Positions 1 to 59,200 of a stretch of DNA of 64,000 nt are shown here, piece by piece. Below the pieces are notes generated by a model. It saw only the letters and a program-made list of their open reading frames with translations, was not told where the DNA came from and made no database searches. The translations under genes were made by a program, and so were the position numbers. This stretch comes from Arbacia lixula (lineage: Eukaryota; Echinodermata; Echinoidea; Arbacioida; Arbaciidae). The stretch lies in the NCBI GenBank assembly GCA_963669155.1, contig OZ022576.1, positions 29,107,938-29,171,937 of the forward strand. Direction: 5' to 3'. Numbering within the stretch: position 1 is the first letter of the stretch; every line of letters starts with the position of its first letter.

Positions 1-385
1 GACCTCCAACGGTACCATAACATGAAGGTACCCCCAGTGCATCTATGACCCAAGTTAGGTTGTAATCCAAGCAACCTATGTGAAGTTATTTGTCAAAAGA
101 GAGTCTTGCAGGTAAACTTTAACATAGAAAAAGAGAGTCTTGCACATACTCTTTAATATATGACCTTAAATGACCTTTGACATCATCACATGACCTCTGA
201 CAACACCATAACATGAAGATACCCCTAGTGCTTCTATCAACCAAGTTTGGCTGCCATAGCTGTAACAGTTGCCAAGTTATGGATCATAAGAGAGTCTTGC
301 AGGTAAACTTTAACATTTGTGACGAACGACGGACGACGGACGGACGACGGACGGACGCCATTTGGAGCCCTTAGTCTCGCCTTCA
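1..385. repeat. 3' part of a dispersed repeat, two tandem units
   Basis: Two diverged units of about 190 bases share the words ACCATAACATGAAG, TACCCC and AGAGAGTCTTGCAGGTAAAC. The second unit ends in a run of GACGGACGGACGAC and then GTCTCGCCTTCACCTCCGGT and GGGCGAGACA, which can pair as a short hairpin (GTCTCGCC with GGGCGAGAC). This looks like the tail of an interspersed element cut by the window edge. I remember similar GACGGACG...GTCTCGCC tails from marine invertebrate genomes but cannot name the family. Confidence 0.5.
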
Positions 386-3555: not shown

Positions 3556-6500
3556 TTGTATGAGATCATCTCCATCTAGCAGTTGATTTTGCAGCATTTC
3601 ATTGCAGAGCACCGACATCCGGCTGTAGAACTCATCAGCACTCTTGATGTCAAGAAGAGGTCTGTACAGAAGATAAATACAGACAATATCTGCAGGGATC
3701 CGATACCTGTCACACACAAATTGACCGCTAGATACCTTATTCCTTGTCCAATAATATTTTCACACTCTCTTCCTAATTTGGTTCTTTGATTTCTCTCTTG
3801 GGATATAAATCATCTTGCAATTAGGATTTTGTCCTCACCAAAGTCATTCACACACTGGCTTATTTCATCCAGACATAGATATATTGTATCTATACATCAC
3901 CTTATTTCATCCATCCATTCACTGGCTTTTTCATGAGATACTGGCTTAATACATGTACATCCATACATCAGCAGCTTTCTTACAGACACTGGCTCATTTC
4001 ATCCAGTCACTGTCTAACTTCATCCATATATTGGATTCTTTCATCTAGATACTGGCTTATTTCATCCAGATACTGGCTCATTTCATCCAGGTACTGGCTC
4101 ATTTCATTCAGGCACTGGCTTATTTCATCTAGATACTGGCTTATTTCATCCAGATACTGGCTCATTTCATTCAGGCACTGGCTTATTTCATGTAGACATT
4201 GGCTTATATCCCCCAGGCGGACATGAACCGGTGCAATCTCTATTTTATCCAAATATTGGCTTATTTTATCTAATGATTGGCTTTCGTGCACCTAGTTTTT
4301 CAGGATTGGGCATAGACCTGTGAGTGTTAGCCGCTCACTTACTGGGAGAGTTTGGCCCAGATGGCCAGGGCTACCCTGAGCAGCACCTCAGAGCCCTCAA
4401 GGAACAGGGTGTCCCAGACCCGCAGGACCAGGCGCTTGGGCAGGCAAGTAGCAAACAGGGTCAGGAACCACTGCATGGTGAAGACATTGGTCAGAGGGGG
4501 CTCGTAACTGCCTGTGAGGGGGAGACAATTTCAGGGAAGAATTTCCGATAACATTTATAACTCAAATGCAAAGCTGTACCACTGGCAAATACAGACTTAA
4601 TAAGCTCAATAATCTGCAATGTGTACCCTGCATAGGTTAATATGACAAGCAGATTAAGATCAAATTAGGAACTCATAAACATCAAAAGCATTTGTCATTT
4701 AGAGCATATGCATTGGGGCATGTACATGATTGATGTGCACATCCACAGAGTTAGGAAGACACCTAGGGGAAAGTCCCAATGAGATTCCTCCATTGTAATT
4801 GGCTCTTCATTATTAAACAAAAATCTACCCTCTATTGGTTAGGGCATAGGGGCACTGGGCGTGGTCAAACCCTCCATTATTTGCATTAGGATAATCCTAC
4901 AAGGGCATTCTAGAATACCAATTTAGCCTCTCCAAGGTACCTCATAACTTAGGTAATAAGGAGAAACTACTGGTAATTTTTCTGAGATCCTGGGCATCTT
5001 AATCCCCTACCTGACAAGCCATCATTGGCTGACTTCTGGAGTTTGTCCAAGTGCTGGGCCAGGTCGGGCAGCTTGAAGTGCAGCAGCTCGCGGAAGACCG
5101 CCATGTCCACGGAGAGCGCCCTCAAGTTGTTGGCAAAGTAGCTGTCGGGAAGGACATGGTCTATCAGGAATATCATTACCTGAGGAGAATGGGGAGAGGT
5201 GTACGTGTATCGTCATTCATCTATTTACTTATTCATGAAATCATAATATCTGCATAGTTCACACACAATACACAGTCCAACATACACAATTTTTCATAAC
5301 AAGAGGCGACATGATTGTGTCTTTGATGATTAATTAAAAATATAACAACAAATTATCATGGACAAACTATTACAGTACATGCATGACATAGGTACTTTTA
5401 ATAGTGAGACATGCAGAGATATGGCAACCTAACATGTAAGCTAGTCAAAGTACTTTTTTTCTCTGCTATTTTTTGAATTTTTCTGTTCTGTCCATCAAGG
5501 CTGTATTCTCATTTAATTTTTTTTTCTAATGAATCCCTTTTCATTTTTCACCCCTTGTTGTTTTTTTATGGGTGATTTCTTTCTTTCTTCCATTCTTTTT
5601 TTATAACGTCCCGTATCTTGTATGTATCTTGCCTGCTTACTTATACCATTGGTGAACAATTCATTCATGAAGTGGTGATGCCACTATTGTAACTAAGATT
5701 ACAACACTTTGCAACATCACTGCACCCAGTATGATTATATCAACACCAACTTTTTAAGTTTGGAGCTCAATCAAGATGTTACAATTATGTGCTATTCAGC
5801 CATAGGCATTTTATCATATCATGTAATGTGTTACGATTCCCAACATAGTAGTCTACAATGCAGACAAAGTTAGGCATACCCACATACATGACCTACCGGT
5901 GAGAACAGTACCCATTTTCTTCATCATTTCCCCAGGTCAGTGATTCACAGCAGGGTGCATCTTAAACCCTTTCTGCACCCAAGTTCGCACTAAAACCTCT
6001 TCAGAAAGACACAATTTTGTCGTCAAAATTATATTAGCCTTCTGAAACGGGAAAGCATTAAACCGATGAAAACAGATTGATTTGAATAGATACTGATTGG
6101 CTGGAGTATGAGCAATATTGAATAAATTGCGAAAAAGGTTCTCGAAGTGTAACAATTGTAACTACTGGCCCTGAATTCGCATCATTAACGTTCATGGGGA
6201 ACTCTATTCCATTTATCTTGTTATGCTCCACGGACCTGTAAATTTCCTTGTGCACAATTCACAGACTTGACAATGCCCTGAGTAGCAATACCAGTAAGTC
6301 ACAGTGTACTTGCATGGCAAGATAATATAGCTAGTGAAATACTTTTCTTGGAAAGCTTTTTGCATGATTTCATGCAGAATTTACTCAATCTGCTTTGATT
6401 TTCTTCTTGTTTGCTTTTTTCTGATTGTTTGCTTCTCTGCTTGTTTGGTGATGTTACCCTTTGAAGGAGTTCTGTTAACCCATGCTTCCTCAGCAAAAAT

Positions 6501-8865: not shown

Positions 8866-10042
8866 GGAGAGAGAAAGGGAGAGAGGGAGGGAGAATTAGA
8901 GAGAAATAGAGACAGATGGAGACAGACAGAGGGACTGAGATAAAGAGAAAGACGGACAGACAGAGGGGGGGGGGGGGGGTGGCAATGGAAAGAAACCAGA
9001 GAGATGGGAAAATGGAGACAGAAAGATAAACAGAGAAAGGAAAAGACAGGGATAGAAATAGAGAAATTAGGGCCATCCATCATCTTTCAAAATCTTGCAA
9101 AATAGCGTGGCAGTTGATCATAAAACCCCTCCCAAACAAAGATTTGCAGAGGAAGACAGACACACACATGGCCTGAGTGGTAAAGATAGAAAGATAACAG
9201 ATAAAAAGACATAAAAACCTTGAGAAACAAGGAGTCACAGGCACAACAATTGAAGAGATGGTGACATGTCTTAGTTTACCATTGGCAGGATCTATGGCGA
9301 CTAACTTTGCCCTGAAATTACCCTTTTTGTGGCTTCTAAATTGCGCCCAGTACAATAAATACAGGAAGTTTGAATTTCATGTCTTTCGTTCTTTTTCTAA
9401 TCCTCTTTGTGCTGATAATTCTAGTGAAAAACAGAGCATCTCCATGTGCACTGATTCTTATCAATAAGCTTTTCCAATCCAGTACACATACTACTCTATA
9501 TCATGTTATCATGTCTAACACATGCTACATGTACATGATGCATAAGCATCGTTTTCTGGTAAAAATCATATATTTTGTCTCACTCACAATTCATATACGT
9601 ACTCTAAAATGGGACTTTGGGTTGCGAATTACAGGTTAGAAAAAAAGGTTTCAGCTGAAGTTTGGAATTAGGGTTTATATTTATCTTATCTAGATAGAGA
9701 CATACCTTGAGAGCATCATCTCCAATTTTCTCCAACATCTCCAACAGGAGAGACAAACAGACAAGCAGTCAGACAGACAGACAGACATACATTTAATACA
9801 TCATCTTCCACCCTCTTCATGACCTCATGTAGGAGACACGACCAAACAGACAACAGACAGACAGACATACCTTGAACGCATCATCTTCCACCCTCTCCAT
9901 GACCTCCAGTAGGAGAGACAATCAGACAAGCAAACAGACAACAGACAGACAGACAGACAAGACATACCTTGAACGGATCATCGTTGATCCTCTCTATGAC
10001 CTCCAGTAGGAGAGACAATCAGACAACCAAACAGACAAGTAA

Positions 10043-10077
<35 letters not shown>

Positions 10078-10245
10078 TACCTTGAACGCATCATCTTTGA
10101 TCCTCTCTATAACCTACAGTAGGAGAGACAATCAAACAGACAACCAAATAGACAACAGACAGACAGACAGACAGACAGACATACCTTGAATGCACCATCG
10201 TTGATCCTCTCCATGACCTCCAGTAGGAGAGACAATCAGACAACC

Positions 10246-10278
<33 letters not shown>

Positions 10279-13200
10279 TACCTTGAGTGCATCATCCTCC
10301 ATCCTCTCCATGACCTCCAGGATGAGTGCAGCGATGACGTTGAAGCCCTGGCAGTAGCCTACAGACTTGTTCCAGCGTGCATAAGCCAGCAGCACCCTCT
10401 TGAGCACCACCCGGTCCTCCTCGGCCCCCTGCCCACAGAAGCCGCTGCATCCCGTTCGGTGAAGGTCCTGCAGGATGCATGGAAAATGGTTACATGTATT
10501 GATTAACTCTCTCAATACCAAGCCAGGAATAGCACATTGACCTATTACACATTTCATGCACCTATGGTACTGAAAGGATTCATTTCTGAGCACATTTTAA
10601 ATTATTTTCTTCTATGCATGGATACAGGTCTCCCCATAGTAACATGGCAAAACAATTTTAAATACACTGTATGTAATATTGCCTCTAAAATTGCCTCTAC
10701 TTGATAAAGAAATCAAAATTACTTTCTTGTAAATTAAAAATATCATGGTACCTCAGTAAGGAAAACATTGCAGATTTCAACAAGGGCATGACTTAAAGCA
10801 CTTAAAGTCTCACAACAATTGTGTCTGCTATATATGCAGATATACACAGTTCATACATCATATACATCATATACATCATATACATCATATACAAGAAAGT
10901 ATTTTTAGTTTGTGCAGTACTGGAAAGAGCCCCTGTCAATATCCACAATTTATCAACAAGCTACCGTACAAAACATAATGGGTGTTTGCCTCATGACATC
11001 AAGATGGAGAAATACGTTCCTGGAAATTACAAATTAACATTTTTTCCCCTGGTCGCATATGAATGCATCTGTACAATGTATGGATAAAGAATAATCCATG
11101 TGAAATGCCCTGTCTGTTACGCAAAATCAAAAACACCCCTTTAGTTCCTCTCCACTAAGTTGACTGAAGCTACTCAAAAGCTTGGTCGGTTGGCTACATG
11201 AATACTGCAATGCTCACAGTATGCATACTTGTGCACACACCACTCACTGAGTGTACATGCGTCATAACGTATCAAAGACTGCTGATAGCACGTGCGTGAC
11301 ATTGCGACTGCCGAAATTGTGGGGTAGGACTAATAGGACCGTCTCCGAAGGCGGCACCCTCTATTAACGATATTGCGCCATTTCAGCTCAGTTGTATGGG
11401 CCTTTAACATGTTGAATAAAAAACACCTGCATGCTAATGTTTAACACTTACACTGTAATGTGCCATGTGTGCCTACTGTCACCAGTAGTTTACACAAATC
11501 CAATTTACAGAAGCAGCATTTTATCTGGCACAGGATCAAGGGATAAAAAGTGGTCCACAAGCACACTTTAAGACAATTTATCATGCTGCCTGGCTTTAGG
11601 CTGCACGCCTGTAATTCAACTTTGGGGCACCCCCTAAAGCATACCAAAGATGTCATTATCATTGAAAAAATATTCCTATAAAATCAGTTGAACATCTTTT
11701 AGTACCTTCTTTCATATAAATAGTAAGCAAATAATCAGCGTTGGTGAGGGTGATGGGACGAACTATCACTTCCGAGGCGATCTGGATGTAGCTATCTTTC
11801 CGAAGCGCAGCTGAGGAAAGATAGCGTATACATTCAGATCGCCGAGGAAGTGACAGCTCGTCTCATTGCTTGAAACCAAAAGTTGATTATTTGCTTTATA
11901 TTCCACATCTGAAACCAACTATCTATACCAAAAATGACAATTTGACGTAAAAAAGTAATGTTTACACATCTCCATAACCCCCAGCCGCTGCCATGGGGAA
12001 CACATGTTAGGACGCGCATTAGGATGCGCATTAGGACGCGTATTAGGACACGTATTGGGACGCGCATTAGGACGCATCAGATGTCAAGTGATAGTCTGAG
12101 TGTAACGCACTTTTATTTCGCGCGTACTCAAAATATTTATCACGCATTAGGACTGTGAGGAGTGAAGAGATCAGCGAAACCAAAAAGTACTATCACCTAG
12201 AGTGTAACGAACTTTTATTCTCAGGTGATCTGATAGGAAAAACTATGCCTCATCACGTGATCAACTCTTGACCAATCATATAGCAACATTCTTAGTATGT
12301 GGAATATAATGGCAATTATTGCACAAGAGCAGTGCAATGGTTGAGCACAGATAGGTCCCTAATTAGAATTATGAGGACTTTATGACATCGCAAAAGTGTC
12401 TGAAATTTTGATCAAATTGGCTTGTAGCCTCAGTTTCAGGCTTTTAACAAAAACTCAAGTAAAAGTTCTTGCCCTTCAAATTTTCATTTGGCAAAGAAAC
12501 ATGTACAGGTACATGTACATGTAAATGAATTTAAGCTACTTGTGACTAGAATATGTATGGACGCATTTTCGACCCTGTGAGTGCCAGGCCAACTGAGGTC
12601 CTATGGGATTTGTGTGCATTACAGGTAAAAGTACACAAATGGCACACTAAGACTTAACATCTAAATGAATTATTCATGATTTTTTTTTTAAACTCTCATT
12701 TTTAATGCATAAACCAATTGGGAAATAATTACATGTGTCTGGCCTTCTGGAGCAGCTACAGTACATAGCCTATTGTAGTCTCATAATGCAGACTCTACCT
12801 AATGAACTATACGATAGACATGGTATGCGCCTGTAAATTAGGTTAGAGGGCAAACTACTGCAATTGCAATCAGTAAACAGACATATTACATGTACATGTA
12901 GGTTCTTGAACTCAGTGAAAATGTTGTTGTGGTTTTTGCTACAATGAGCCATACTCTAAATATTGTTTGACGTCAACGTGATTTGGCGATAAAATGAACA
13001 CTCAGTCATGTATTGCTAATTGCAACACTATATAAGATGACATTTACACAATCTGGATTTCAGACTAACATTATGCCTTGTTTTACCAGTTTGCTATGGG
13101 GAAAGGGTATATTTGAATCCAGTAATACTCACTTCAATTTAGAGATGAGAATTTCTAAGAAATATAGGACTCTGAAAGACCATGTTTCCAAGTGGCCACC

Positions 13201-52100: not shown

Positions 52101-54079
52101 ATTAATCCCATATTTGCTACTGTTTTGAGATCTTCAGTCACAGTTCAAAATCACTTTACTTTGACACCTCCAGAAGTCTAGTAAAGACTACCAATTTGTT
52201 TGGTACAGAAAGAGCAAATTGCCCAAAGTTGTGACAAAGTGAGGCCAGTTGCATGAGATAAGGCCTGCATCTATAAGAGAAAGCACATAATGCTCTCATT
52301 CAGTTTACTAAATAACACTTCACCCTCATTCATTGTAATGCAAAGTTAAAAAGCTAATGCACTCTTACCCTAGGAAGTGCATCTGGTTTCCTTGATGGAT
52401 CATCTATTAGAAGAAAAAGGCAAAAATAATTCCTCTTTTTGTTTACATTTCCACTTTTTATGTATTTCAATTCTTCATGATATAAAAATAAGGACAGTTT
52501 ATGATTTAATTATACATTTATACATATATTGGACAAAGGTGGAATTAAAATCACACAAATCTAAGCGATTTGTCACATTAGTCATATTAGTCACACCACC
52601 AAAAATATGAGTTTTCATAACAAAACAAACTTGTATGTAGTTTTTGAAATGATATCATTTAATGATTGTTCATTCTACTAGAATTCACCCTTTACCCCTT
52701 TTCTTTTGATGAGGTGGGCCCAATTAATCAATAGCCTTACTTGAATAATTAATATAGAAACATGCACACATGTTTTTTTGCCTTTGCAATTTGCTTGTAA
52801 TATTATACAACAAGTGGAATGGCTGGTACAGATAATACCCCCAAATACACCAAAGAAATATTCAAGAAATTACAGTGACAGAGCAGCAAGACTGGTGGAC
52901 AGACATGTCAAATAAACAATACAATCAGGCCTACTTTACATGTAGTTAAGACAGGCATGTAGAAATATTGGAGAGTTGACCTCACAGACACACTACACTA
53001 CCTGATCTTGATGATTCCTGTTCACCAAACATTCGGCGAAGCACATCTTCCGACACCTGCCAATGATAAAGATGATTTGTTTCTTCAAAATAAAGGAAGT
53101 ATTTTACAAACATTTTCACTTTCAATGATATCTGATCTATATTTGATTGTGATATGTCAAATGGCTGACAAATTTGAGGCTGTTCACACGGGCATGCCAT
53201 TGTGTTTGCGTTGCATTGATTACAGAAACATAAAACAGTCGATAAACGAGCGACTTGATCACTTGAATATATTACAACAGCATGAACTTAATGCACTTCT
53301 GGACGATATTATGGTGGGTCCAGTTAGTTAGTCCACTAAATATTGTGTTTTGTGCAATTTTGTGATGATCCCTTCCTAATCAACCATTAAGTTTGTGTAA
53401 CTTAGTTTAAAGTAACTGACTTAGGCTACGTGTGCCCTAATCGTAAGAAATGAATAACCATCTCACTTTGGGAATTCTTTTAACATGTTTATCAACACAA
53501 CATATTTTGACTTATTCTACCCCAGACTAAGTAGGGCATTCAGAGTAGACCGAAAAATCAGTCTCTGTAGGACGTTGGATCCGCTGAGAGTGCATCTGGC
53601 TCCTCTGAACGCCGTATCTAGAGACAGAACATTACACCAGGAGGGCGTTTCTATTCGGGGATAAGTCCAAAAATGTAGTTTCGTTTAAAGAATGCGTCAA
53701 ATGAGACGGTAATTCCTGTCTAATTCAGAGGAGCCAGATAAAATCTTTGAGAGACGTAACAACGTAAGTCGCAACACTGACTGACTTTTTTGTGAGCATG
53801 CGTCCTGGCTATATGATCTGGATTCATTCTTGAAGTCTAACTTAACATGCTTAATGTTAAAGAACTTGAAAAGGAATGAATCCTGACTGAATGAATCGAG
53901 TTTAGATAGATTAGATTTAGATTAGAGACAGAGAGTTCTCTAAAAAGTGAAGTGGAATTGCTGGTTTTCTATGTAGCCTACACTTTAGGAACGCTTACTA
54001 AACTTACCTTCACAACCCCTCCATCTATATCTTGTTCCAAACTTATTCTCCGACCTGGAGAACTGCTGCTACCCCCCAT
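49169..54079 (-). CDS. CHCHD3: MICOS subunit MIC19 (CHCHD3-like)
   Basis: Seven exons on the minus strand: 54079-54008, 53056-53002, 52403-52369, 51478-51398, 50225-50155, 49860-49725 and 49207-49169. Together they encode 162 residues. The start MGGSSSS offers Gly2 for N-myristoylation, as in CHCHD3 and CHCHD6. Residues about 55-104 are a charged helix ending YKLTADQFQKAADEVEAKF. The C-terminal CHCH fold has twin CX9C motifs: Cys113/Cys123 and Cys134/Cys144, with ten residues between the pairs. These are substrates of the MIA40 import pathway. MIC19 links MIC60 to the rest of MICOS at cristae junctions. The product is shorter than human CHCHD3 (227 residues). Most of the missing part is the central coiled coil, so either a phase-0 exon was overlooked or the lineage has a short form. 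CHCHD6/MIC25 is the alternative name; the two vertebrate paralogs cannot be separated here. Confidence 0.88.
50534..51328. mobile_element. Non-autonomous element with CAGANATGCCAACC ends in a CHCHD3 intron
   Basis: The left end CAGAGATGCCAACC (50540-50553) and the right end, the complement of GGTTGGCATGTCTG (51309-51322), form a 14-base inverted repeat with one to two mismatches. CAATGG flanks both (50534-50539 and 51323-51328). A similar CAGACCTGCCAAC at 50883 may be a second, nested left end. The right part has repeated AAATCGTA words, a poly(T) run and A-rich tracts. No transposase frame is present. Confidence 0.6.
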
Positions 54080-56100
54080 TTTGGAAGAATTAAAAGTGGA
54101 AACTGACGATGTGGAGCACTCGGACAGACAGTTCTGTTCTACAGTTCAGTCCCACAAGGTTAAAATTGTGTAAGAGTTCAATCACTACACGCACAGGGCA
54201 CGAACGGCGAACGTGCAGCTTGTTTGTCGCCCTCTATGGGCCAACCAGAGAAAAAGCTTCAAATTCCTTTTATTTCCTTTGAAATTATTTTTCTTTATTC
54301 TGAACATGTTCCCCGTTATGACTACTTACATATTATTGTCACACTAAAACGACAGATATGCGGACAACCGGAAAGCGTACTTCACGAAGATATTTCAACT
54401 TCATTTTGAAACATTGTTACCAAAATATAGAAATTGCTAAATTCACTCCGAATAAGATAAGATAAGATAAGATTTTATTAATTCTATCGAATCGGTTCGG
54501 CCATGAACCGAAACTGATTGGCAGTCAGAATATGTAGTAAGATTAACTGACTGTATAAAATGCATATAAATACCCTTTCTTCCAATCAATACATTGATTA
54601 TACACGGTAGTTGGGGAAATTATCAAGAGGGAGGATTCAAAAGAAGGGGGGGGGGGCAAAAGAGGACTGAACACAAATGAGGTTTCATATGATTTTTTTT
54701 TTCAGGATTATAAACACCGATGCTCATCATTCCAGATTTACTAGGAATGAAAATATAACTTGTGGATGCACTTTTCGAACGAGTGGCCTTAAATCAGTTT
54801 GAAATACATGGTAGTCTTAAGAGGGTGGACGGGAAAGCTATACGGCCCGGCCTGATAACAGGGCTACCTATTTTGTGGTAGTTCTCATGAAAGGTCTTAA
54901 TCAATAGTCAATAATCAAATAATAGGGCAGATAAACGATATGAGGAACTGAGCGAAAATACATTGTGAAACTCCACTCAAGGTTGTGCACTGTATAAGGA
55001 AGCAAGAGCGTAAGCCTTAACTACAGGAAGTGACGGAAAGAAGGGAAGATGGAAAAAAAAAGGTAAAAAGGAGGAGCGGGGGGTGGTCTTTATTTAAGCG
55101 TCATAAATTTAGGACCGTAACAATAAAATAAACGATGAGAAATTAGAGTAATAGAGTAATAAAGCCCATACTTTGTAGGACGGATCGTTCGAGTGAAATG
55201 ATCTTTTTTATTATTCGATATGATGATAAATATAACATTACGATAATGTTCGACACAATACTGACAACGGGATGATTTACATTCGTTGCAAAATTGAAAG
55301 TCACGACATGCACAATTTCAATATGTTTCAAGAAAAACAATGAACAAAATACGTTTTTTCCAGCTATAAAGGCCAATAGATACAGTGTGTTTCGTAAAGA
55401 GAACAAACCATGTTTAATGACAACTGGGTGTTAGCTTGGGACACAACACAAATTAATTTAAAAATGAACAAAAAAGCGAATTATGAATGGCCGCTGGTGG
55501 TGGTTATCATGCTATATAGCTAAGATTTTAAAGATAGGTAAAGCTGAACAGAGAAACGCGTGAATGATACAGTCACACCGTAATTGTGAGGCTTATTCAT
55601 GGAAGCATAACAAAAAAACATGGCGGGTGTAATTATTATCTTTGACCATAATCATTCAAAACATTTTTAAACCGTGGAAATATTTGTACACTTCACGGGA
55701 AAGGAAGGCACGTCGGGAGAAATGTTACTGTTATAGTAATAGACGCACAGAATAGTGATGAACGAGTACGAATATAATACTCTTCTCTCTCCTCTTCTTG
55801 TGACAACGTTTTATACGTAAGTATAATTGACAAATTAAACATATGATGGTATGAATGACTTTTTGAAAGAGCTAGAGAATGAGAAAAAAGGGGAGAGGGA
55901 GAGAGAGAAAGAGAGAGAGGTAGTTAAAGTGTAGAAAAAGGCTCTAAACGATGTGATGCCTTCATGCCCCCTAACCCCTAACCCTGTGAGCCTAACCCCC
56001 CTACCCACCTCTCACACCAGCCCTCACTGCCCATGTTGCATAAAAAAATAGCCAAATATGAAGAAAGAAAATCCCTCGGTTAATGGGTTTGGTGAGGTTA
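54080..56100. other. Spacer between CHCHD3 and the P450 gene, with a possible LINE tail
   Basis: The CHCHD3 promoter should lie just right of 54080. At 54455-54485, AATAAGATAAGATAAGATAA followed by GATTTTATTAATTCTATCGA resembles the tail repeat of a minus-strand non-LTR element. Its body, if any, would extend to the right, but I cannot read a protein in it. A G-run lies at about 54647-54656. A GAGA tract occurs near 55895-55920. The P450 3' UTR occupies the right end. No gene is recognised. Confidence 0.45.
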
Positions 56101-58737
56101 TTAACGTTGACTCGCAATAATTTTGAATTTCTTAGGCGCTAGAGTTGAGGTGCGATGCCCAAAGCCATAATCTGGTGTCGCATCGTCGGGCAAGCTGAAA
56201 CGGAACCGCTGGAACAGGTTGGTGAAGAAGATGAACAGCTCCACTTTAGCAAGTTGCTCTCCGAGGCAAATCCGACGACCTGCACAAAGAAACGAGAACA
56301 TGTTAGTGCCGTCAATAAAGATCATGAATGCTTTAACAAAAAATAAAAAAAAGGTTAAACAAGCTTGCATTTCATGTTTCAGCACAAAGATTACATTATC
56401 TTCTGAGCATACTAACTTTCCCTTCCTGTATATTCAGCAAATTAATCAACGAGGGAGAGAAATATACAATATTTCAAAATTTGTTAAATCAAAAATGACC
56501 GACAGCAAAATAATGTAATACCTGCACCGAATGGCATGTGACCATCAGGCTTGGTCACTGTCTGACCGGTTTCATCCAAGAACCGGGTGGGGTCAAATGT
56601 CTCTGGGTCAGGCCAAAGGTCAGGGTCAAGGTGCATTCCGACCATGTTCATTAGAATGATGGAACGCTTGGGGAGGAAGTAACCTCGGAACACGATGTCT
56701 TCCGTGTTGATGTGAGGGATGCCGAGTGGTGCGATCGGACGGATTCGGAGGAGTTCGGCAATCGTCGCTTCCGTGTACGGCATCTTCGTCCGGTCCTCGT
56801 ACGACGGTGTGCCTTCCCGGCCAATGACTGCGTCGATCTCTTCACAGATCTATGGTTATCAACATCGAGGGGAAAAAAGTGAAACAGGGATAGAAATTGA
56901 TCAGAGCAATACGAGAAACAAATTAAGGATAGAATATTACTCTGGAATAGCCTGAGATGATTGCGAAACGAAATGTTCGTGAAGCGCGTAACCATACATT
57001 CACAAATGCCAAATACAATTTTCATGTACATGTAACACAATTATTCACTAATTTTCTTTCCTCAAAATAATGCCGTAGTTCCCTTTCCCAAAAATATCAT
57101 AAATGATCAAAGACTTTGAATGAACCTTTGTCTGGACGTCTGGGTATCCCGCCATATAGAGCAATGCCCAGGTCAGTGTAGTAGCAACGGTCTCCGTCCC
57201 AGCAAGATAGATATCGAGCAGTGTCCGCCATAGCAACGATTCGTCCAGGTATGTCACCTCCCCAGCGCCTTTTGCCCTGTCGATCTCTGCCAGGCACATG
57301 TCGATGACGTCTCTTACGACTTCGGGATCGAAAGACTCGCGGTGATCGATGACCTCTTGCTTCATCAACGCAATCAGAGAATTGCACATTGTCCGCTCCT
57401 TGGTAAACAACGGAGTGAAGTAGAGCCACGGCATCATTTCTAACGGTCCATAAAAGTTCTCTGCTCCTAGGACGTCCGTTATCAGCTGAACCATCTGCTG
57501 AAATCTAGCATCCGAATACTGGAACCGCTGGCCGGCAGTAATCGTTTTTATGATGTTGGCAACCGCGTAGTTGATAGTGCGGAACGGGTCGAAGGGTTTT
57601 TCTGCCGCCTTGGAAAATTCGCCACAGAGGATCTGAGCCTCCTCGTTGACTCCGTCGCCCATCGTCCGTTTACCCATGCCGAATTTCCGAAAGGCGAGAA
57701 GAAAGAAACGTCGCATGTCGCTCCAGGACTTCCCCTCCGCAAATATGATACTACCTGATAAAAAACAATTCGGACAACAAAATACAGACATCTGAATGAA
57801 AAAAAATAATGATCGGTAGCACAGCTAGTATAGTTTATGACGTCTTGATATCGTACGGAACACATTAGGCTCCTAATGACTTATCATATATTCGCCTTGA
57901 ATTAATTCGCTTGAAGGAGGGGCGGGAGCAGAAGGGCAAATCCGTAAATAATTTCAAAATACATATCAAAGATTATGATTCTTCAATACCAACTAAACAT
58001 TAACCAACCAACCAATCAATCAATCAATCTAACAGTCAACAAATAATAACCAATCAGTCAACACACCAAACAACCCGCCAATCGTTCAAACAGCCATGAT
58101 CAAGCGCCTCATGCATGAATCATCAACCTGCTGCCAAGCCAGCCAACATAATCAATCCACCAATACATCGATACATCAAACAATCACTCATTAGTTATCA
58201 ACATATCAACAAACAAATCAACAATATCAACTAATCCGCGAACACAATCAAACAACTAAACAATAATTAAGAACCGATATTGGCGGACAGATAACTTGAA
58301 AGTTTTGAGTTCAAAGTAAAGATTATTGCAAACTATTTCCCATTCTGCTGACCTTCATCTCTGAAGGCCACGTGAGCCAGGGGAGCGGTGTCGCGACCTG
58401 ACGTGATCTCAGCCTGCTTGACGAACAGCTCATGGACCATCCCGGGGTCGCTCAGGATGACGAGCAGCTTCGACCCCTTCGACACAGAGTAAATGTCGCC
58501 GTAGCGCCGGCGGAGGTCGGTCACCAGTTCGACAAGGTTGGGTGGCTTGGAGCGGGAGATGATACGGACGAGGTCGCTGAGGAAGATACTGGCCGTGGAC
58601 GGGCCCGGCGGCTGAGGCGGCCGAGGGCCGTTGGTGGCCGATGATGACCATCGACGACTGCGCACCCAGGAAAAGGTAAGAGCGGCAGCGGCGAGCCCGA
58701 GGAAAATTTGCGTTTGCGTCCACTCCATTCTGTTCAC
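56101..58737 (-). CDS. Cytochrome P450, CYP2 clan, microsomal
   Basis: Four exons on the minus strand: 58737-58353, 57754-57126, 56849-56522 and 56279-56101. They give 506 residues, the usual P450 size. A short hydrophobic N-terminal anchor (about 11-24) is followed by the proline-rich hinge PRPPQPPGP, which marks an endoplasmic-reticulum enzyme. The I-helix oxygen-binding motif is AGTET at 313-317. The K-helix ExxR is E370-R373. The meander motif is FDPTRF. The heme loop FGAGRRICLGE is split by the last intron, with the heme thiolate at Cys452. The stretch GKSWSDMRRFFLLAFRKFGM is a CYP2-clan hallmark. All catalytic motifs are intact, so it should be active. Substrate is unknown, and I cannot assign a subfamily (CYP2U- or CYP2J-like are possible). 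A second in-frame ATG at 58728 (MEWTQTQ) may be the real start. The exon 2 donor is a weak gttcat, but the frame and homology support it. Confidence 0.92.
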
Positions 58738-59200
58738 ATTATCTGTAGTTAAAAGAACATTAACAGCATGTCATAAAAGAAAGAAGCAATCAGAAAGTTA
58801 TCAATTTTCCTTTTGGACGTGTGTGCATGTGCATTTATTTTCTGTACCTCAGAGAAATTAAGTACTTAGGGTAAAGGAGATTTTGGAGAGATAGTTTCAG
58901 GCCCTATTTATTAGGCCACATATCCGTTTGAGACGTATTCAACCCAATAATTGACAGGCTGATTCAATCACTTACTGGCAGCCGCAGGTGAATTACTTTC
59001 GAAAAAAGAAGAACTTTTAAGTCATATAGGCATACTACATAATTATTATTAGGAAACCAAGATTAGAAGGGGCGGAGAGATAGAGACAGAGGGGTAAACC
59101 TATGATGAAGAACGAAAGAGAGAGAGAGGGGGGGGGGGGGGGGGAAGGGGGAATGAGAGGGGGGATGGAGAGAGAGAGGGGGGGGGGGAGAGAGATGGGG

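Follow-up and report, generated by a model that had tools for sequence, protein, structure and literature searches.

When the end of a coding exon recurs in a row within the intron that follows it, each time together with its splice donor, do the copies take part in making the message, or are they carried along and removed? We address this question in a stretch of echinoderm DNA of 64,000 nucleotides, hereafter the window, in which six such copies lie beside an exon of a TBC-domain gene. The reading that we favour, at a probability of about 0.85, is that the row is a boundary-spanning minisatellite, a "mirage" of the kind named in amphioxus, which is excised with an intron of 5.1 kb and is essentially neutral.

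Anatomy of the array and its place in the genome

The exon at 10467-10282 is flanked by AG and GT, is open over 62 codons and ends at 10282 with AAG|GTATGT. Besides its Pfam match, it resembles solved TBC structures at E 5e-4 and weaker; we take the gene that carries it to be TBC1D30, and presume that the exon following the intron is homologous to the same gene. The features, in coordinates of the window, are these:

10282..10467, minus strand: TBC-domain exon of 186 nt, phase 0/0, its 3' end the copied part; Pfam RabGAP-TBC, E 1e-9
10276..10285, minus strand: true donor CAAGGTATGT, from an exact-word search of the window
10185..10223, minus strand: exon-end copy c1; donor intact at 10179-10188; 34/39 identical to the exon end
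10081..10119, minus strand: exon-end copy c2; donor intact at 10075-10084; 31/39 identical; 33-nt cassette at 10081-10113
9968..10006, minus strand: exon-end copy c3; donor intact at 9962-9971; 32/39 identical
9871..9909, minus strand: exon-end copy c4; donor intact at 9865-9874; 35/39 identical
9791..9829, minus strand: exon-end copy c5; donor damaged, AAT|GTATGT; 30/39 identical
9706..9744, minus strand: exon-end copy c6, the outermost; donor intact at 9700-9709; 29/39 identical
9745..10281, minus strand: six TCTG-rich spacers of 41-74 nt, interleaved with the copies
5011..5179, minus strand: next exon, starting VMIFLIDHVLPDSYF; intron to the array exon about 5.1 kb

On the intron side of the exon, then, the minus strand carries six diverged copies of the last 39 exon bases plus the donor. 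They end at 10185, 10081, 9968, 9871, 9791 and 9706, with spacings, counted from the true exon end to c1 and on to c6, of 97, 104, 113, 97, 80 and 85 nt (range 80-113). In the exon part, 29-35 of 39 bases agree with the true exon; c5 is the copy that lacks a perfect donor, and c6 is the most diverged from the exon with its donor kept. The donor word CAAGGTATGT has six exact matches in the 64-kb window, all at the array (the true exon and five of the six copies), where 0.15 are expected and none of 100 shuffles reaches six. Likewise, a 24-base pattern of exon end and donor, allowing up to three mismatches, finds seven places in the window, all at the array, with 0 expected from 100 shuffles. 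Two traits of mirages are thereby found here: tandem units that span the exon-intron boundary, with seven exon ends and donor on one strand, and splice signals within the units, the donor being exact in five of six copies. A sequence-only reading of this DNA had described six units, each of a diverged exon-end copy, a donor and a TCTG tract, with five donors intact and forming a row of sense-direction decoys after the true exon. That description is borne out; its range of 9690..10280 becomes slightly wider in a self-comparison, 9698-10326, which counts in the true exon end.

In the same gene, a 21/63-bp minisatellite at 3844-4216 begins slightly more than 100 nt past the donor of the exon at 4342-4511 (minus strand), and its unit has no visible derivation from that exon. 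Elsewhere in the window a cytochrome P450 gene occupies minus-strand positions 53000-58770 (57048-57824 matches Pfam p450 at E 4e-38; the other exons are open frames only). Rfam and ARAGORN gave no matches on the window.

Is the array found elsewhere in the genome? A search with the 871-nt query region against the 606,990,701 bases of the same assembly (590 contigs; the search scores its best candidates and passes over simple repeats, which makes the counts lower bounds) returns at least 76 matches, the locus itself included. Among the at least 75 non-self matches listed, 66 cover no exon-derived base, 6 cover 1-5 and 3 cover 21-39. Two of these three, at C3:19511199 and C10:5221193, prove on alignment to be TCTG/TCTA tract, the exon part falling in gaps, and the third, C7:7850529-7850600, covers 21 bases of the exon end as known from its match coordinates alone. 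Among the matches listed in the 607-Mb assembly, no second locus holding exon copies is demonstrated and no second allele of the array is found. The sequence-only reading had allowed that the same array at many unrelated loci would make this an ordinary dispersed satellite, and the matches listed offer no such picture. A satellite lying here by chance, or an artefact of assembly, is barely credible as an explanation. Tandem arrays can be misassembled, and one amphioxus globin gene is reported to have 6 and 3 mirage units in two haplotypes (PMC3087553). The seven exon ends, however, differ pairwise at 4-17 of 39 bases, unlike an assembly echo, and we reject the dispersed satellite because 72 of at least 75 non-self matches overlap the exon-derived part by 0-5 bases and two of the remaining three are TCTG tract.

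History of the units and their possible use in splicing

Comparing the units with the exon had been suggested for ordering the duplications. Parsimony over 945 topologies yields a single shortest tree of 29 steps, (((c1,(c2,c3)),(c4,c5)),c6) joined to the exon, in which neighbours pair with neighbours and c6, adjoining the rest of the intron, splits first. Such a tree is what a single founding tandem duplication and subsequent local expansion would leave. The earlier proposal that the origin of the array is tied to TCTG is supported as well: TCTG repeats open all six spacers, and the same combination is seen in unlinked donor arrays described below.

On the mechanism that we propose, a local tandem duplication would have taken in the last 39 or so exon bases, the donor and the TCTG tract next to it, and slippage or unequal exchange would then have multiplied the unit. 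All copies lie intronward of the true donor; splicing would use the donor nearest the exon and excise the copies with the intron, and a decoy used now and then would leave a premature stop in the message. The recurrence of such arrays would reflect a high frequency of local tandem duplication in the genome, with selection perhaps acting as a filter that spares the arrays in which one complete exon retains a splice site of its own. In minigenes with duplicated identical donors, the intron-proximal donor is often preferred; this preference would favour a decoy and counts against exon-proximal use.

Change among the copies is unevenly spread, at 0.74 steps per site in the first 35 bases of the exon part, 0.33 in the 15 bases before and 0.20 in the donor. 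Within the unit it is the exon part that changes fastest, an observation that weighs against a coding use. Set against the exon part, the donor word, with 10 of the 45 sites, takes 2 of the 28 steps (P 0.035); set against the intronic flank of the unit, it changes no less (P 0.42), and special protection of the donor is a weak proposition that we do not retain. The same figures bear on a regulatory role, in which the decoys would act as a sink, lowering output by competing with the true donor for U1, or as a shield from premature polyadenylation. Five exact extra donors within 576 nt would suit such a role, as would the lesser change of the donor word than of the exon part and the fact that, in the whole 5.1-kb intron, a single further GT reaches the score of the true donor. 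Given that the flank is about as conserved as the donor, however, and that the acceptor-side arrays found elsewhere in the genome are ill-suited to a donor-specific role, we regard it as highly improbable.

Are the copies maintained as coding sequence? Five of the six contain no stop in 13 codons; the exception, c2, reads TAG at its second codon. The earlier observation that the exonic part stays largely open therefore stands as a description, but random mutation to equal divergence leaves 79-90% of copies open too. Changes among the copies at codon positions 1, 2 and 3 number 9, 5 and 14, with position 2 taking 5 of 28, a weak avoidance (P 0.057). The amino-acid differences between c6 and the exon are unusually conservative (P 0.014, one of six tests), the strongest single result of the kind, yet one that fails correction for six copies and that we do not count for coding use; constraint acting on the true exon accounts for part of this conservatism. 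Coding constraint on the copies accordingly finds no support in the codon positions on the tree, in the stop-free simulation or in amino-acid similarity.

Use of a decoy donor would lengthen the exon by 97, 201, 314, 411, 491 or 576 nt. Every one of these six readings runs into a stop: with c2-c6 it comes at residue 112, inside the array, and with c1 at residue 147, once the shifted frame has entered the next exon. It had been proposed that extra copies of a TBC-domain helix may be inserted; by exon extension this would fail, with a stop in six of six, and as a cassette it meets a poor acceptor in five of six copies. The cassette deserves a closer look, for a unit, above all c2, could serve as an alternative 33-nt micro-exon that adds 11 residues to the TBC domain, or could replace the last 11 residues of the exon via the AG|GT inside LE|VMER. 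The separate 33-nt piece is open and in frame in all six copies, an openness near to chance. In c2 a change from GAG to TAG gives the acceptor CTGTAG, which on an acceptor matrix scores 6.8, the best of the six copies and third among 248 AG sites scored in the intron, compared with 5.9 for the exon's own acceptor and 9.9 and 7.9 for those of the next two exons; the donor of c2 equals the true one, and a yTnAy word stands about 20 nt before the AG in c1-c4. In c1, c3, c4, c5 and c6, on the other hand, GAG is a poor acceptor (scores of at most 1.9 on the same matrix), the copies change fastest in just this exon part, and an insertion of 11 residues in the TBC helix region would likely be harmful. 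Use as a cassette or swap exon is thus improbable, and c2, a possible in-frame micro-exon of 33 bases, is the candidate that offers the most testable exception to neutrality. For the array as a whole, the most likely state is a neutral one in which it does little.

Similar arrays at other exons

Arrays of this kind stand beside unrelated exons of this genome, and the TBC case is less special than it seemed. We sampled 20 stretches of 10 kb at round coordinates of contigs C1, C3 and C4, a small set and not a random one. Local duplication clusters number 54 in 294 kb in total, 41 of them in the 200-kb sample and 6 in the 64-kb window. Six of the 41, picked as promising, were read (L022:452, L029:6708, L030:8849, L029:3374, L026:49 and L012:3642), and four of these six give at least four boundary duplications in the 200-kb sample, on donor and acceptor sides. 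Scaled up, four per 200 kb would come to about 12,000 per genome (about 3,000-31,000 by counting error alone, from this small, non-random sample). In the window, none of the other five duplication clusters is tied to an exon boundary, with gene models there partly worked out.

At L022:452-1415 (G000:C1:46000452-46001415, minus strand), ten copies of a strong acceptor, TTCTCTTTTCTTC(C/T)TCAG with the start of the exon, precede a TRPM-like exon (E 6.5e-4); nine of the ten are decoys, each with at most one mismatch over 42 bases, spaced 89-90 nt. At L029:6708-7422 there are five decoy donors with TCTG tracts, and at L029:3374-3856 two decoy donors with a GAAT tract; exon status in both L029 arrays comes from open frame and splice motifs only, with no convincing database match. 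At L026:49-243 (C3, plus strand) a fructose-1,6-bisphosphatase exon (E 2e-13) is followed by a single decoy donor, in a diverged repeat of the exon end with the donor GTGAGGTCA. Reversed-motif controls for four motifs (L022, the first L029 array, L026 and the TBC exon) gave 0 matches in 294 kb. Two further clusters were set aside: L011:7292-7732 (96 nt x 4.4) has a GTATGC word and no clear exon, and L009:4443-5763, with its many donor-like words, looks like a short-period repeat. A repeat with the words GCAAGACTCTCTT / AAGAGAGTCTTGC is similar-looking at window 1-316, L010:5248-5852 and L013:2812-3656, and forms short tandem arrays of 157- and 191-bp periods in L010 and L013.

Searches that start from the TCTG tract lead to two more arrays. 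The TCTG donor pattern, with one mismatch, occurs at four places besides the TBC array (L005-L008). One of them, L005 on C3, is a boundary array; no boundary array is seen at the pattern matches L006-L008. The gene at L005, on the minus strand, is SMC6 (solved SMC6 structure, E 2e-15), and units of 75-97 nt upstream of its exon carry the acceptor TTGC(T/C)AG; apart from the true acceptor, four come up in a strict scan, and BLAST adds a longer-gapped set of pieces. In the intron downstream of the same exon, behind the donor TTGTCTTTCAG, lies a 33-nt copy, at 85% identity, of an inner exon segment; the intronic fragment reads LIMAIWESLES against LIMALWESVES in the exon (L005 and L009:7177-7623, C3, minus strand). 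Seven TCTG-rich loci, L034-L040, were fetched and judged by their tandem-repeat listing, the stretches of L034 and L036 being read as well, and one of the seven, L035, is a boundary array. Located via its TCTG tract on C10, minus strand, it has an exon ending in INMGTYFRDAMCQCFSVGFE and eight further copies of that end and donor; six of the nine 70-mers are identical or differ by at most one mismatch, two more have one, and an older degenerate copy lies past the last.

It is conceivable, if doubtful, that the genome carries thousands of mirage arrays, with a sizeable share of its exons beside near-identical decoy donors or acceptors, and that such rows form a standing pool for micro-exons and new introns and a natural test of exon-proximal choice.

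Relation to known systems

The closest relatives are the amphioxus mirages (Adh3, the globins BflGb6 and BflGb9, troponin C and PGBD5), whose defining anatomy the TBC array shares. It differs in its echinoderm host and in the TCTG tract that is part of its unit. In amphioxus, RT-PCR together with earlier Adh3 data are reported to suggest that regular splicing is undisturbed, and the authors build a model of intron gain on the mirages (PMC3087553). For amphioxus PGBD5, a second report describes splice-site-spanning repeats inside which automatic annotation predicted an extra exon (PMC3902484).

The host is not a cephalochordate, a point that touches the distribution of mirages as described and not their definition: its mitochondrial cox1 follows the echinoderm code. 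On the mitochondrial contig C590 (15,740 bases), cox1 has internal TGA. Under table 9, both of its two AAA codons fall on Asn residues conserved in mammalian COX1 (N136, N217), and nine aligned ATA codons fall six on Ile, three on Leu/Val and none on Met. A nad4L-like frame lies between cox1 and cox2; we take it to be nad4L, and its placement to be the echinoderm gene order. No earlier report of mirages in echinoderms was found among the titles and abstract openings listed from open-licence literature, which excludes most subscription journals. The TBC array belongs to a type of repeat already described, here in a phylum where the same search turned up no earlier case.

In human IFI6, as beside the TBC exon, a row of repeated donors stands next to a coding exon. 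The IFI6 minisatellite has a unit of about 12 bp, without a long exon piece. A further difference lies in use: in IFI6 (G1P3) downstream repeat donors are reported to serve in splicing and to yield three mRNAs (PMC4526556), whereas each of the six extensions to a TBC decoy would meet a stop.

With proposals and cases of intron gain (the Rogers model, potato RdRp, human repeats) the array shares a tandem duplication across the boundary that supplies splice sites, and as in the intron-gain model its copied exon part holds AG|GT (CTGGAG|GTC). In contrast to these cases, the acceptor in five of the six TBC copies is still the poor GAG. New introns may arise from human tandem repeats that lie at exon-intron boundaries (PMC2812944), and the potato RdRp gene is reported to have gained an intron via duplication across the boundary (PMC4974935). 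Tandem exon duplication with mutually exclusive exons likewise places copies of coding sequence within one gene; we reject it here, given that just 39 of 186 exon bases are copied and that five of six copies have GAG acceptors.

Taken singly, the TBC array is a curiosity of a type that has been named before. Of broader interest is that mirages, described by the mirage papers (PMC3087553, PMC3902484) in amphioxus only, occur, and look dense, in an echinoderm. If that density holds, one genome would have many exons bearing several identical donors or acceptors in a row, the choice among equal splice sites would be testable directly from RNA data, and the birth of micro-exons and introns by tandem duplication might be caught in progress.
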